Below are positions 43,343 to 48,986 of a stretch of 64,000 bases of DNA, piece after piece (position 1 is the first letter of the stretch; the number at the start of each line of letters is the position of its first letter). The position numbers and the translations under genes were made by a program. This stretch comes from Streptomyces sp. NBC_00376 (GTDB lineage: Bacteria > Actinomycetota > Actinomycetes > Streptomycetales > Streptomycetaceae). A model generated the notes under the pieces. It saw nothing but the letters and a program-made list of their open reading frames with translations, made no database searches and was not told the DNA's origin. Where the stretch lies: the NCBI RefSeq assembly GCF_036077095.1, contig NZ_CP107960.1:7626001-7690000 (forward strand), read 5' to 3'.

Positions 43343-43984
43343 TCAGTCCTTCAGATGCTCCAGGATCCGGTGCATCCCGCTGTTCCAGTTCTCCTTGAGC
43401 GCCGCGACGGCCGCGTCCAGGTCACCGCGTTGCAGGCACTCGGCGATCCGCTCGTGCTCCTGTGCCGAGCGCTCCAGGATGTCCTGGTCGCCCAGGGCGA
43501 CCCGCTCGTAGCGGTGCATCGTCACCTTCAGGGAGGTGATCAGCTTCATCAGACGGTCGTTGGTGCAGCCGGACAGCAGCAGGTCGTGCCACGCGTCGTC
43601 GTAACGCTCTATGACGTCGTGCGGTGCCTGCGGGGCCGAGAACGCGCGGGCCTCCTCCAGGAGGCGGGGGGCCGTCACCGCCAGATGCTCCGGATCGCTG
43701 GACTCCAGGGCGAGCGCCTCCAGCGTCGCGACGATCGCGGACAGATCGCGGAACTCCTGCGCGCTGAGCGGCGTGAAGCGGAAGCCCTTGCCGCGCTCGC
43801 TGGTGATGACGCCCTCACGCTCCAGCGTGATCAGTGCCTCGCGCAGCGGAGTACGGCTGACACCGAGCTCGGTGGCGAGCTGCCCCTCGTTGATCGGCGA
43901 GTTGGTCGCGATCGTGCCGCGCCCGAGGCGCTTGATCAGTTCCTCCTTGACCTGTTCGCGCAACGGGCGGTTTTCGATTGGCAT
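43343..43984 (-). CDS. GntR-family (FadR/FCD-type) regulator
   Basis: 213 aa. Winged HTH at residues 8-72 (INEGQLATELGVSRTPLREA LITLEREGVITSERGKGF), then an FCD effector domain with the metal-binding His/Asp set (RYDDAWHDLLLSGC, HEREIAECLQRGD pattern HERIAECLQ). It is the last gene after SDR, kinase-like protein and the two GcvP subunits on the same strand, 50 bp behind the SDR. It probably represses this operon, perhaps through the inverted repeat at 49080-49095. The effector would be an organic acid; this is inference. Confidence 0.9.
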   Translation of the reverse strand: MPIENRPLREQVKEELIKRLGRGTIATNSPINEGQLATELGVSRTPLREALITLEREGVITSERGKGFRFTPLSAQEFRDLSAIVATLEALALESSDPEHLAVTAPRLLEEARAFSAPQAPHDVIERYDDAWHDLLLSGCTNDRLMKLITSLKVTMHRYERVALGDQDILERSAQEHERIAECLQRGDLDAAVAALKENWNSGMHRILEHLKD

Positions 43985-44033
43985 GTGAGGCTGCCCTCCC
44001 CTTCGGTCCGGTCGATTATCCGCTACCGGCGGG

Positions 44034-46003: not shown

Positions 46004-47598
46004 CGGCCGGCCTCACCGAGCACCTTGCGGCGGTACGCGCGCCAGGAGACCGCCCAGACCGCGGGGTCGTCCAGGGCCTCCGGGCGCACCCGGTGGATGG
46101 TCGAACGATGCGGGGCCGTACGTACGGTCTCCGGGTCCTCGTACGCCTCGCGGGCGATCTCCGCGAGGATCGCCGCGTACTCGTCGAGGTCGGCGCGCGT
46201 GTACGACTCGGTCGGCTCCAGCGTCATGGGCTCCGGCACCACGTACGGGTGGTGGCTGGTCCAGTAGTGCGTGCCGAAGTCCGCGGCGCGCAGGCCGATG
46301 TCCTCGGAGTGCAGCCCGGTGTCCTGGTGGAGCTTCTCCCAGCTGTAGCGGACCTGTTCGACGCGTGGGCGCCCGGCCGCGTACGGCACGGAGACGCCCG
46401 GGATCTGCCGGACCTTGTGGAGCAGGTAGTTGTTGTTGAGGACGGCCGTCTCGGCGGCGGCCCGCAGGCCCTCCGCCCCGAGCGACATGATCCAGGCGTA
46501 GGCGCGGACCAGGTTCGGCACGACGCCGTAGAACGGCCGCATCTTGCCGACCGACCCGGGCCGGTCGTCGTCCAGCCGGTACGTGCCCGTCTCCGGGTCG
46601 AGCTCGACGGTCGGACGCGGGAGATACGGGGCGAGCTCCTCGGTCACGGCGCAGGCGCCCGCCGCCGGGCCGCCGCAGGCGTGCGGGGTCGAGAACGTCT
46701 TGTGCAGGTTGAAGTGGCACAGGTCGAAGCCCGCGTCCCGGGCGCGGGTGATGCCGAGGACGCCGTTGGCATTGGCCTGGTCGTACGAGCACAGGCCGCC
46801 CGCCTCGTGCACGATGCGCACGAACTCCTCGATGCGCGGATTGTAGATCCCGGTGTCCTCGGGATTGGTGATCAGGAGCGCCGCCGTGCGCGGGCCCACC
46901 GCCGCCCGGAGCGCCTCGATGTCGGGGTAGCCGTCGGCGTCCGGATGGAGGGTGATGACCTTGAAACCGGCGGTCTTCGCGCAGGCCGCGTTGGACGGGT
47001 GGGAGAAGATCGTCGTGATGACCTCGTCGCGCTGGTCCAGCTCGCCGCGCGCGGCGAAGTAGGCGCGGATCATGGCGACGTTGGTGTAGATCGCGGCGGA
47101 GCCCGCGCCCGGCTGGAGCGAGACCCGGTCCATGCCGGAGATCTCCTTCAGCAGCTGCTCCAGGCCGTGGATGATCCCCAGGACGCCCTGGACCGTGTCC
47201 TCGTCCTGGAGGGGGTGCAGCGCCGCGATCCGGGGGTCGCGCACGAACTGGTCGTTGACCTTGGGGCTGTACTTCATGGTGCAGGTGCCCTGGCCGACGT
47301 CGATGTTGAGATCGGCGCCGAGGTTCTCCTGCGAAAGGCGCAAGTAGTGGCGCAGGACCTGCTGTTGGGACATCTCCGGCAGGGCGGGCGGATCGGAGCG
47401 GCGCAGCGCGGCGGGAATCGCCGGCATGCCGAGGGACGGGTCGGCGGCCGGGACGAGGACGCCCCGCTCACCCGGCGAACCGAGCTCGAAGATCAGCTTC
47501 TCGTCCCAGGACGCCTGCTGGAACCGGCGCAGCCGGGGCTTGCCGGCGATGCGTGCCTCCTCGGGGGAGACGGGCACGGGCGCGTGCGAGGCGGTCAC
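46000..47598 (-). CDS. gcvPB: GcvPB-like glycine dehydrogenase subunit 2, altered active-site loop
   Basis: 532 aa. PLP lysine in FNLHKTFSTPH (about residue 308). The glycine-rich loop that normally follows (HGGGGPG) reads HACGGPA here, and the usual YDGAN is YDQAN, so the site differs from standard P-protein. Other landmarks (TMKYSPKVNDQF, LSLQPGAGSAAIYTN-like VSLQPGAGSAAIYTN, ITNPEDTGIYNP) are conserved. GTG 47598 overlaps the gcvPA stop; GTGA junction with the kinase-like gene downstream. In the standard pathway the enzyme decarboxylates glycine onto lipoyl-H-protein, but gcvH, gcvT and lpd are absent here. Confidence 0.88.
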   Translation of the reverse strand: MTASHAPVPVSPEEARIAGKPRLRRFQQASWDEKLIFELGSPGERGVLVPAADPSLGMPAIPAALRRSDPPALPEMSQQQVLRHYLRLSQENLGADLNIDVGQGTCTMKYSPKVNDQFVRDPRIAALHPLQDEDTVQGVLGIIHGLEQLLKEISGMDRVSLQPGAGSAAIYTNVAMIRAYFAARGELDQRDEVITTIFSHPSNAACAKTAGFKVITLHPDADGYPDIEALRAAVGPRTAALLITNPEDTGIYNPRIEEFVRIVHEAGGLCSYDQANANGVLGITRARDAGFDLCHFNLHKTFSTPHACGGPAAGACAVTEELAPYLPRPTVELDPETGTYRLDDDRPGSVGKMRPFYGVVPNLVRAYAWIMSLGAEGLRAAAETAVLNNNYLLHKVRQIPGVSVPYAAGRPRVEQVRYSWEKLHQDTGLHSEDIGLRAADFGTHYWTSHHPYVVPEPMTLEPTESYTRADLDEYAAILAEIAREAYEDPETVRTAPHRSTIHRVRPEALDDPAVWAVSWRAYRRKVLGEAGR

Positions 47599-48986
47599 TT
47601 GACGATCTCCTTCAGGGTCGCGGCGAGCCGGTCGATGTCGGACCTGGTGTGGACTTCGGTGACGCAGAACGCGGCCTCGTGCGTGCCGGTCGGGGTACCG
47701 CCGAAGATGCCCCGCTCCTTGAGTTCGGCGCGGATCTCGGCGGCGGTCCGGCCGCCCGTGTAGCGGACGGTGAAGTCGGCGAAGTGCAGGGCGTCGCCGT
47801 ACGGGACCTCGATGCCGGGCACCTCGGCCAGGCACCCGCGGGCGTACGCGGTCAGCGCGAGGATCGTCTCGCCGATCTCCCGCATGCCCTGCGGTCCCAT
47901 CAGCGCGAGATAGACCCCGGCACCGATGCCGTGCAGCGCGGCGGCCGTGCCGACCCACTCCTTGCCCTCCTCGCGCAGCGCGAACGAGGTCCGTTCGTAG
48001 GCGACGTCACCGAAGCCGTACTCGCCCTCGACACTCGTCGGAACCAGGCCGAACAGCCGTGACGGATACTCGGCCACCAGCCTCTCCTCGTCGCGGGTGG
48101 CGATGAAACCGGCGTTCGCGCCGCCGAAGCTCTGGTGCAGGCCCAGCGGCTGGATGTCGCCGCACGCGATGTCGGCGCCGTACGCGGAGGGCGGCGCGAG
48201 CACGCCGAGCGTGAGCGGATTGCAGCCCACGACGTACAACGCACCTGCCTCGTGGGCGAGGTCGGCGAGGAGGGGGAGCGCCTCGTCGACGATTCCGAGC
48301 GCGGAGGGCGTGTCCGCGTACACCGCCGCGGTGTCGCCCGCGGCGAGCGCCTCGCGCACCGCTTCGAGGTCGGCGCGGCCGGTGGCCGGGTCGACCGGGA
48401 CCACCGTCACGTCGTGGTCGGGGCGTACGTAGTCACGGATCCGGGAGAGCTTGTCGGCGTCGATCGCGGTGGCGACGAGCAGCCGTCGGCGGCCGGTGAT
48501 CCGCCCGGCCATGCGCAGGGCCGTCCCCGAGGCCTGGAAGCCGTCGTACACCGGGACGTTGACGATCTCGACATCGAGCAGCTCGGCCATCATCGACTGG
48601 TACTCCCACAGCGCCTGGAAGCGGCCGTGGTCCTCGTAGGGCTCGCCCGCGTACGCCGTGAGGAACTCGCTGCGGTTGACCACCTCGTCCACGACCGCTG
48701 GTACGTGGTGCTGGTAGCAGCCGGAGCCGAGGAAGCTGAGCGCCTGCCGCGTCGAGGTGTTGCGGCCGAGCAACGCCTCCATGTGGCGGGTTAGTTCGGC
48801 TTCCGAACGCAACGGCTCCGGCAGGTCGAGGGGGCGGTGCAGCCGGATGCCGTCCGGGATGTCGGCGTAGAAGTCCTCGACGCTCGCGGCGCCGATCTCC
48901 TCCAGCATCGCCTGCCGCACGGCCGGCACCGCGTTCGGGATGTAGGGATGGGTGTATGTGTGGACGGAGTCCTGGGGTGACGTCAT
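47595..48986 (-). CDS. gcvPA: GcvPA-like glycine dehydrogenase subunit 1
   Basis: 463 aa. N-terminal P-protein half: YIPNAVPAVRQAMLEEIG, SFLGSGCYQHHVPAVVDEVV, NRSEFLTAYAGEPYEDHGR (normally YTPYQPEISQG), NVPVYDGFQASGTALRMA and GLHQSFGGANAGFIATRDEE. The changed YAGEPYEDHG loop parallels the altered loop of its partner and hints at a different substrate. ATG 48986 follows GAAAGG; longer in-frame openings upstream are ignored. Head gene of a five-gene leftward operon, divergent from a sugar-binding lipoprotein gene with two palindromes between. Confidence 0.87.
   Translation of the reverse strand: MTSPQDSVHTYTHPYIPNAVPAVRQAMLEEIGAASVEDFYADIPDGIRLHRPLDLPEPLRSEAELTRHMEALLGRNTSTRQALSFLGSGCYQHHVPAVVDEVVNRSEFLTAYAGEPYEDHGRFQALWEYQSMMAELLDVEIVNVPVYDGFQASGTALRMAGRITGRRRLLVATAIDADKLSRIRDYVRPDHDVTVVPVDPATGRADLEAVREALAAGDTAAVYADTPSALGIVDEALPLLADLAHEAGALYVVGCNPLTLGVLAPPSAYGADIACGDIQPLGLHQSFGGANAGFIATRDEERLVAEYPSRLFGLVPTSVEGEYGFGDVAYERTSFALREEGKEWVGTAAALHGIGAGVYLALMGPQGMREIGETILALTAYARGCLAEVPGIEVPYGDALHFADFTVRYTGGRTAAEIRAELKERGIFGGTPTGTHEAAFCVTEVHTRSDIDRLAATLKEIVK

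Follow-up and report, generated by a model that had tools for sequence, protein, structure and literature searches.

The window analysed here is a stretch of 64,000 nucleotides from Streptomyces sp. NBC_00376 (contig NZ_CP107960.1, positions 7,626,001 to 7,690,000) that carries, at 43343 to 48986, five genes, all on the minus strand, for a GntR/FCD regulator, a short-chain dehydrogenase/reductase (SDR), an NAD-kinase-like protein and two subunits resembling the halves of a split glycine decarboxylase P-protein (GcvPB-like PB and GcvPA-like PA). These five assignments, first made in a sequence-only reading of the window, were confirmed with Pfam and NCBIfam, although its remark that several of the genes overlap holds for two junctions only (PA/PB and PB/kinase, 4 bp each), the other two being gaps of 68 and 49 bp. 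A divergent half on the plus strand (49130 to 56483), beginning 144 bp from PA, encodes an ATP-binding cassette (ABC) importer and two glycoside hydrolases (GH). Locus counts below refer to the 80 nearest loci of the genome collection, 54 actinobacterial and 26 non-actinobacterial.

43343..43984, minus strand: GntR/FCD regulator, presumed operator binder (Pfam GntR 60.3 bits, FCD 53 bits; tblastn match in 50 of the 80 related loci)
44034..44780, minus strand: SDR (Pfam adh_short_C2, E 2.5e-64)
44849..46003, minus strand: NAD-kinase-like small-molecule kinase, putative, with GGDGT motif (Pfam NAD_kinase, PF01513, 55.2 bits; NAD_kinase_C, PF20143, 51.5 bits)
46000..47598, minus strand: PB, a GcvPB-like subunit of the pyridoxal 5'-phosphate (PLP) enzyme, GTG start, Lys300 in NLHKT, altered pocket (NCBIfam NF003346, 587.7 bits, cut-off 441)
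47595..48986, minus strand: PA, GcvPA-like partner subunit, active-site loop replaced (Pfam GDC-P, E 1.1e-60; NCBIfam NF001696, 454.1 bits, cut-off 364)
49085..49103, minus strand: predicted operator AATGCTGTATTCAGAACAC between the two divergent operons, its core recurrent upstream of PA
49130..50467, plus strand: ABC sugar-type solute-binding protein (Pfam SBP_bac_1, E 1e-33)
50472..51398, plus strand: ABC permease 1 (Pfam BPD_transp_1)
51395..52252, plus strand: ABC permease 2 (Pfam BPD_transp_1)
52249..54282, plus strand: GH42 β-galactosidase, no obvious signal peptide by eye (Pfam Glyco_hydro_42, 42M and 42C)
54279..56483, plus strand: GH63 α-glucosidase of the YgjK type, signal-peptide-like start by eye (Pfam MGH1-like_GH, PF22422, 266.7 bits; YgjK_N, PF21152, 148.6 bits)

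The PA/PB pair forms a clade apart from glycine decarboxylases

The NCBIfam equivalog models for the two subunits (NF003346 and NF001696) accept this clade above their cut-offs, hence its database name, glycine dehydrogenase. The loops that the sequence-only reading had singled out in the window do read HACGGPA and YDQAN in PB and YAGEPYEDHG in PA, and these alterations were consistent across the family when we compared its rows (83 PA, 81 PB) with those of canonical split enzymes (30 PA, 31 PB) and of five single-chain proteins. The PA pattern YxGxxYxDxG was found in 83/83 family rows and in none of the 30 canonical split or five single-chain rows, so that the altered loop is not a common feature of the glycine decarboxylases compared. 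The active-site loop YTPYQ and the motif SNI[CT] were each absent from all 83 family PA rows and present in 26/30 canonical and 5/5 single-chain rows, the four canonical rows without them being short (402 to 414 aa) and probably not PA. On the PB side, all 81 family rows carry DQA[NG], whereas.DGAN is found in 31/31 canonical and 5/5 single-chain rows; HGGGGPG occurs in 0/81 family rows versus 28/31 canonical and 5/5 single-chain ones, and GSCT has become GTCT in 79/81. The family PB has also gained RYSW (78/81) and SH[HV]P (81/81), and retains the PLP lysine motif NLHKT in every row.

A 56-row tree placed all 32 family rows on one side of a long branch (length 1.48) with 100/100 support, nested beside split canonical GcvPB and not grouping with canonical P-proteins; the adjacent row (L110) is a fragment on a long branch. 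Judged by these alignments and this tree, the clade marked by the altered loops is an ancient one. The accessible parts of PMC7259800 list Y161 and Y164 of the human P-protein as active-site residues and present a docking model in which R373 and K376 contact the H protein. Mapped by our own alignment, Y161 is kept in the family, Y164 is deleted, R373 is replaced by Leu and K376 by Glu, and SNI[CT] adjoins the modelled H-contact residues. Because Y164, R373 and K376 are not kept and canonical residues are replaced, the pair has probably lost the handling of glycine and of the lipoyl group.

The genome encodes glycine cleavage proteins elsewhere: matches to H (one copy) and T lie near 2.69 Mb, and the 992-aa open frame of a single-chain GcvP is at 7.459 Mb, the window itself spanning 7.626 to 7.690 Mb. 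With these three proteins encoded elsewhere, the PA/PB pair is, by gene content, not the housekeeping glycine decarboxylase, in line with the sequence-only reading. Its further statement that no H, T or L gene is nearby holds for H and T, neither of which was found beside the pair; the L protein was not searched for. A canonical P-protein was also present in 14 of 15 genomes with a related locus, as no more than a contig-edge fragment in G004 and G008. In G006, a metagenome-assembled genome (MAG), no canonical P was found, and its second P match is another divergent copy with 61% PB identity to the window.

The pair could nonetheless still be a glycine decarboxylase, induced together with collagen-type substrates and borrowing the housekeeping H protein. 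Collagen is about one third glycine, and the scores above the GcvPA and GcvPB cut-offs, the universally kept PLP lysine motif and the presence of H and T in the genome would all fit. However, the substrate loop is replaced (Y161 kept, Y164 deleted) and the modelled H contacts R373 and K376 have become Leu and Glu by our alignment, as far as the accessible parts of PMC7259800 define these residues. G006, moreover, has two divergent pairs, no canonical P, an H match of only 22 bits and T matches confined to a 1065-aa frame, although this MAG may be incomplete. We consider retained glycine decarboxylase activity improbable.

The pair travels with a kinase-like protein and an SDR

As the sequence-only reading suggested from the single window, the kinase-like protein and the SDR accompany the pair: PA was found in 80/80 loci, the kinase in 75/80 and the SDR in 71/80, the misses lying mostly at contig ends. 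L051 is without the SDR, and what matches in L064 is only a second SDR (37%). The four-gene core recurs in Actinomycetota, Chloroflexota, Latescibacterota, Calditrichota (Caldithrix), Bathyarchaeota and Brockarchaeota; the non-actinobacterial records are MAG contigs, in which binning errors are possible, above all in the archaeal ones. In Streptomycetaceae the locus is present in 28/297 genomes (72 to 100% identity). For 301 Chloroflexota genomes, which include the centre genome chosen for having the locus, eight genomes among the matches listed have a PB at 53 to 79% identity, and the other matches listed are at 39 to 46%.

The kinase-like protein belongs to the NAD kinase superfamily by its NAD_kinase domains, which score above the Pfam cut-offs, and by its GGDGT motif, whose residues (G121, G122, D123, G124 and T125) are invariant in 31 kinase rows; it matched no NCBIfam family. 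Its AlphaFold2 model (predicted local distance difference test, pLDDT, 92.4) resembles DgkB (a diacylglycerol kinase), NAD kinase and sphingosine kinase, with unrelated folds scoring nearly as high. We regard it as a candidate kinase from a part of the NAD/diacylglycerol kinase superfamily that is still uncharacterised.

Further genes were seen around the core in single loci. A second, distinct SDR (61 to 79% identity to the L067 copy) lies near it in L043, L045, L052, L054, L058, L064, L066, L067, L082 and L147. SsnA-like and YgfK genes stand just upstream in L147 (13-4643) and L162, together on the same contig with genes that by eye resemble those for a carbamoyltransferase, a carbamate kinase and a xanthine dehydrogenase, and a gene of the tryptophanase/tyrosine phenol-lyase family (L149:2179-3558; 688 bits to NF009709) lies near a divergent PA/PB pair.

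A predicted shared operator joins the core to a glycoside half

The sequence-only reading took the pair for a PLP decarboxylase with a substrate other than glycine or with a different acceptor. The part of this claim that sets it apart from the housekeeping enzyme stood, while decarboxylase activity itself is conjectural. The reading also overlooked the genes for glycoside uptake and hydrolysis under the same predicted operator, and these suggest that the amino acid carries a sugar instead of being a free analogue of glycine. The palindrome core of this operator, CTGTATACAG, occurs exactly 27 times in the 733,864 bases of 40 type-1 loci, every time within ~330 bp upstream of PA; with one mismatch it is found in 11 further loci and the window, and with two in L040 and L059. 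With a longer pattern, one mismatch allowed, each of 12 whole genomes showed a single site at this locus; one stray site was found (G574), and a reversed control pattern gave none. In the window alone, a mismatch-allowing search returned two matches against 1.37 expected, which is not significant by itself. The GntR regulator presumably binds the operator at 49085 to 49103, and the two divergent halves would share it and form one GntR-controlled regulon. That the locus is a single regulon for a glycoside or amine we consider likely.

Among the 54 actinobacterial loci, which show two arrangements, GH42 was found in 51, GH63 in 49 and the ABC permeases in 51. The second arrangement has distant versions in 13/13 loci (GH63 28 to 34%, permease 34 to 38% identity), and three Chloroflexota loci (L047, L060 and L065) have an ABC system and GH63 of their own, two of them also GH2. 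Given these separate, distant sets, the glycoside half and the core seem to have come together on more than one occasion. The window GH63 combines YgjK_N with an MGH1-like GH domain, as YgjK-type enzymes do, and its nearest solved structure is E. coli YgjK (E 2.8e-153). YgjK acts on glucose-α1,2-galactose (Glc-α1,2-Gal). The accessible part of PMC7263609 describes it with galactose at subsite +1.

Collagen hydroxylysine as the candidate aglycone

An α-glucosidase, a β-galactosidase and an amine-handling PLP enzyme together fit the collagen unit, and we therefore propose glucosyl-galactosyl-hydroxylysine (Glc-Gal-Hyl) as the substrate. The collagen glycan is Glc-α1,2-Gal on hydroxylysine in the accessible parts of PMC8626586 and PMC11012932, the latter writing the linkage as β in its abstract and α in its body. 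From its gene content the locus probably breaks down a sugar-capped amino acid; that this amino acid is hydroxylysine we put at about even odds. In a literature search, with most subscription papers outside its reach, no account of this gene set or of bacterial hydroxylysine-glycoside breakdown was found.

M9 collagenase was present in 178/297 Streptomycetaceae genomes, comprising 28/28 with the locus versus 150/269 without (Fisher p 5e-7); the corresponding figures for a control, GH11 xylanase, were 9/28 and 112/269. Within one genus (g14), genomes with the locus had a mean of 4.4 M9 matches (n=17) versus 2.96 in those without it (n=51; p 6e-5), genomes without M9 being left out, which favours the null, and M9 counts did not correlate with genome size. 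The G006 paralogue (L158:1-15508) is accompanied by lysine-fermentation genes of KCE- and KDD-like type, by a Liv-type ABC system and by two aminotransferases, one of them class III. In L067 and L082 there are a YgeY-like M20 hydrolase and an ornithine transaminase (539.5 bits, cut-off 378.4), and in L150 and L151 a related solute-binding protein, oligopeptide-type by eye.

Several observations weigh against this interpretation. M9 is nearly universal in genus g14 and the collagenase link is confounded by kinship, and a query search of the loci themselves found no collagenase in them. The KCE- and KDD-like genes of G006 fall below their NCBIfam cut-offs (331 bits against 382 and 194 against 200). 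GH63 is present in only 3/26 non-actinobacterial loci (17/26 at least 14 kb long), so that the core may serve other substrates there, and L007 and L040, two of the 40 actinobacterial loci of type 1, have no glycoside half at all. No kinase gene adjoins the pair in L082 or in the G006 paralogue, L150 to L152 have no SDR, and the role of the SDR is left unexplained.

Part of this would also suit a regulon for another glycosylated amine, such as an amino alcohol carrying galactose or a glycoside of plant or microbial origin, whose aglycone the pair, the kinase and the SDR would degrade. The sequence fixes only an α-glucosidase, a β-galactosidase, an importer and a PLP enzyme, and in most non-actinobacterial loci the core stands without glycosidases. 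The collagenase association, the lysine-type neighbours of the G006 paralogue and the ornithine transaminase of L067 and L082 point instead to a basic amino acid, and we regard another amine as somewhat unlikely.

A proposed route and its chemistry

We propose, with a probability of roughly 0.45, that the GntR-controlled locus imports and degrades an α-glucosyl-β-galactosyl-linked amine, most likely the Glc-α1,2-Gal-β-O-hydroxylysine of collagen. The glycosylated residue would be freed by proteases and by collagenases encoded elsewhere in the genome, its glucose removed by secreted GH63, the resulting galactosyl-hydroxylysine taken up by the ABC importer and its galactose removed by cytosolic GH42. 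The NAD-kinase-like protein would then phosphorylate the 5-hydroxyl, and PA/PB would bind the terminal amine as a PLP aldimine (H2N-CH2-CH(OPO3)-R) and eliminate phosphate and ammonia to give 2-aminoadipate semialdehyde, with an SDR redox step before or after the elimination. In this proposal the gene set, the operator, the clade, the altered pocket and the conservation across phyla are read from sequence, and the sugar linkages, hydroxylysine and, most of all, the reaction are inferred. The terminal H2N-CH2- group of hydroxylysine may fit a P-protein pocket because it resembles the aminomethyl group of glycine. Mammalian hydroxylysine breakdown likewise proceeds by a kinase and then elimination by a PLP phospho-lyase, and the pairing of a kinase with a PLP enzyme suggests the same order here; resting on this analogy, the assignment of PA/PB as a phospho-lyase is doubtful.

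It is also conceivable that the SDR oxidises hydroxylysine first and that a PLP-dependent cleavage between C5 and C6 splits the aminoketone into a glutamate skeleton and an aminomethyl or methylamine unit. Such a cleavage is nearer to the carbanion chemistry of P-proteins than phosphate elimination, gives the SDR a use and, by chemical reasoning only, would yield glutamate from C1 to C5 of hydroxylysine. It leaves the kinase without a role, however, despite its presence in 75 loci, and we think it distinctly unlikely.

As databases name the family glycine dehydrogenase, metabolic models would credit these genomes with a second glycine cleavage step that is probably not there. If the collagen reading is true, the locus would reveal which genes act on the sugar-capped hydroxylysine of collagen in soil and sediment, the pair would exemplify a P-protein no longer tied to lipoate, and the analysis of collagen glycosylation would gain candidate enzymes; the NAD-kinase-like protein offers a testable kinase in its uncharacterised branch.

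Elsewhere in the window, the gene next downstream of GntR, which shares its strand, encodes a DUF4032 protein with a weak lipopolysaccharide-kinase match (42026-43336), and genes resembling those for the urease accessory proteins UreF, UreG and UreD by eye occupy 37963 to 40093.

Comparison with known systems

The window pair belongs to the same two-subunit family as the split P-protein of T. thermophilus (1wyt; PB E 1.8e-91, PA E 7.5e-69), with which it shares NLHKT, but differs in that YTPYQ, SNI[CT], DGAN, GSCT and HGGGGPG are all replaced, in its 1.48 stem and in having no H or T gene beside it. The mammalian hydroxylysine kinase and 5-phosphohydroxy-L-lysine phospho-lyase resemble the proposed route in their order, a kinase and then PLP elimination. 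The mammalian phospho-lyase is a class III aminotransferase and its kinase an APH-type protein, whereas the window proteins belong to the GDC-P/GcvP2_C/Aminotran_5 and NAD_kinase families, with no Pfam match to class III aminotransferases in PA or PB at E 0.001. E. coli YgjK is the best solved relative of the window GH63, which, unlike YgjK, shares its locus with an ABC importer, a GH42 and a P-protein-like pair. PGGHG, the animal collagen α-glucosidase, acts on the bond proposed here, Glc-α1,2-Gal-Hyl, in the accessible part of PMC8626586, but is a GH65 enzyme and not a GH63, and a GH65 query gave no match in the loci tested. It is tempting to speculate, and we do so tentatively, that a P-protein has been remade as a lipoate-independent (phospho)hydroxylysine PLP enzyme at the core of what would be the first bacterial and archaeal pathway for collagen hydroxylysine glycosides, with GH63 taking in bacteria the place that GH65 has in animals.

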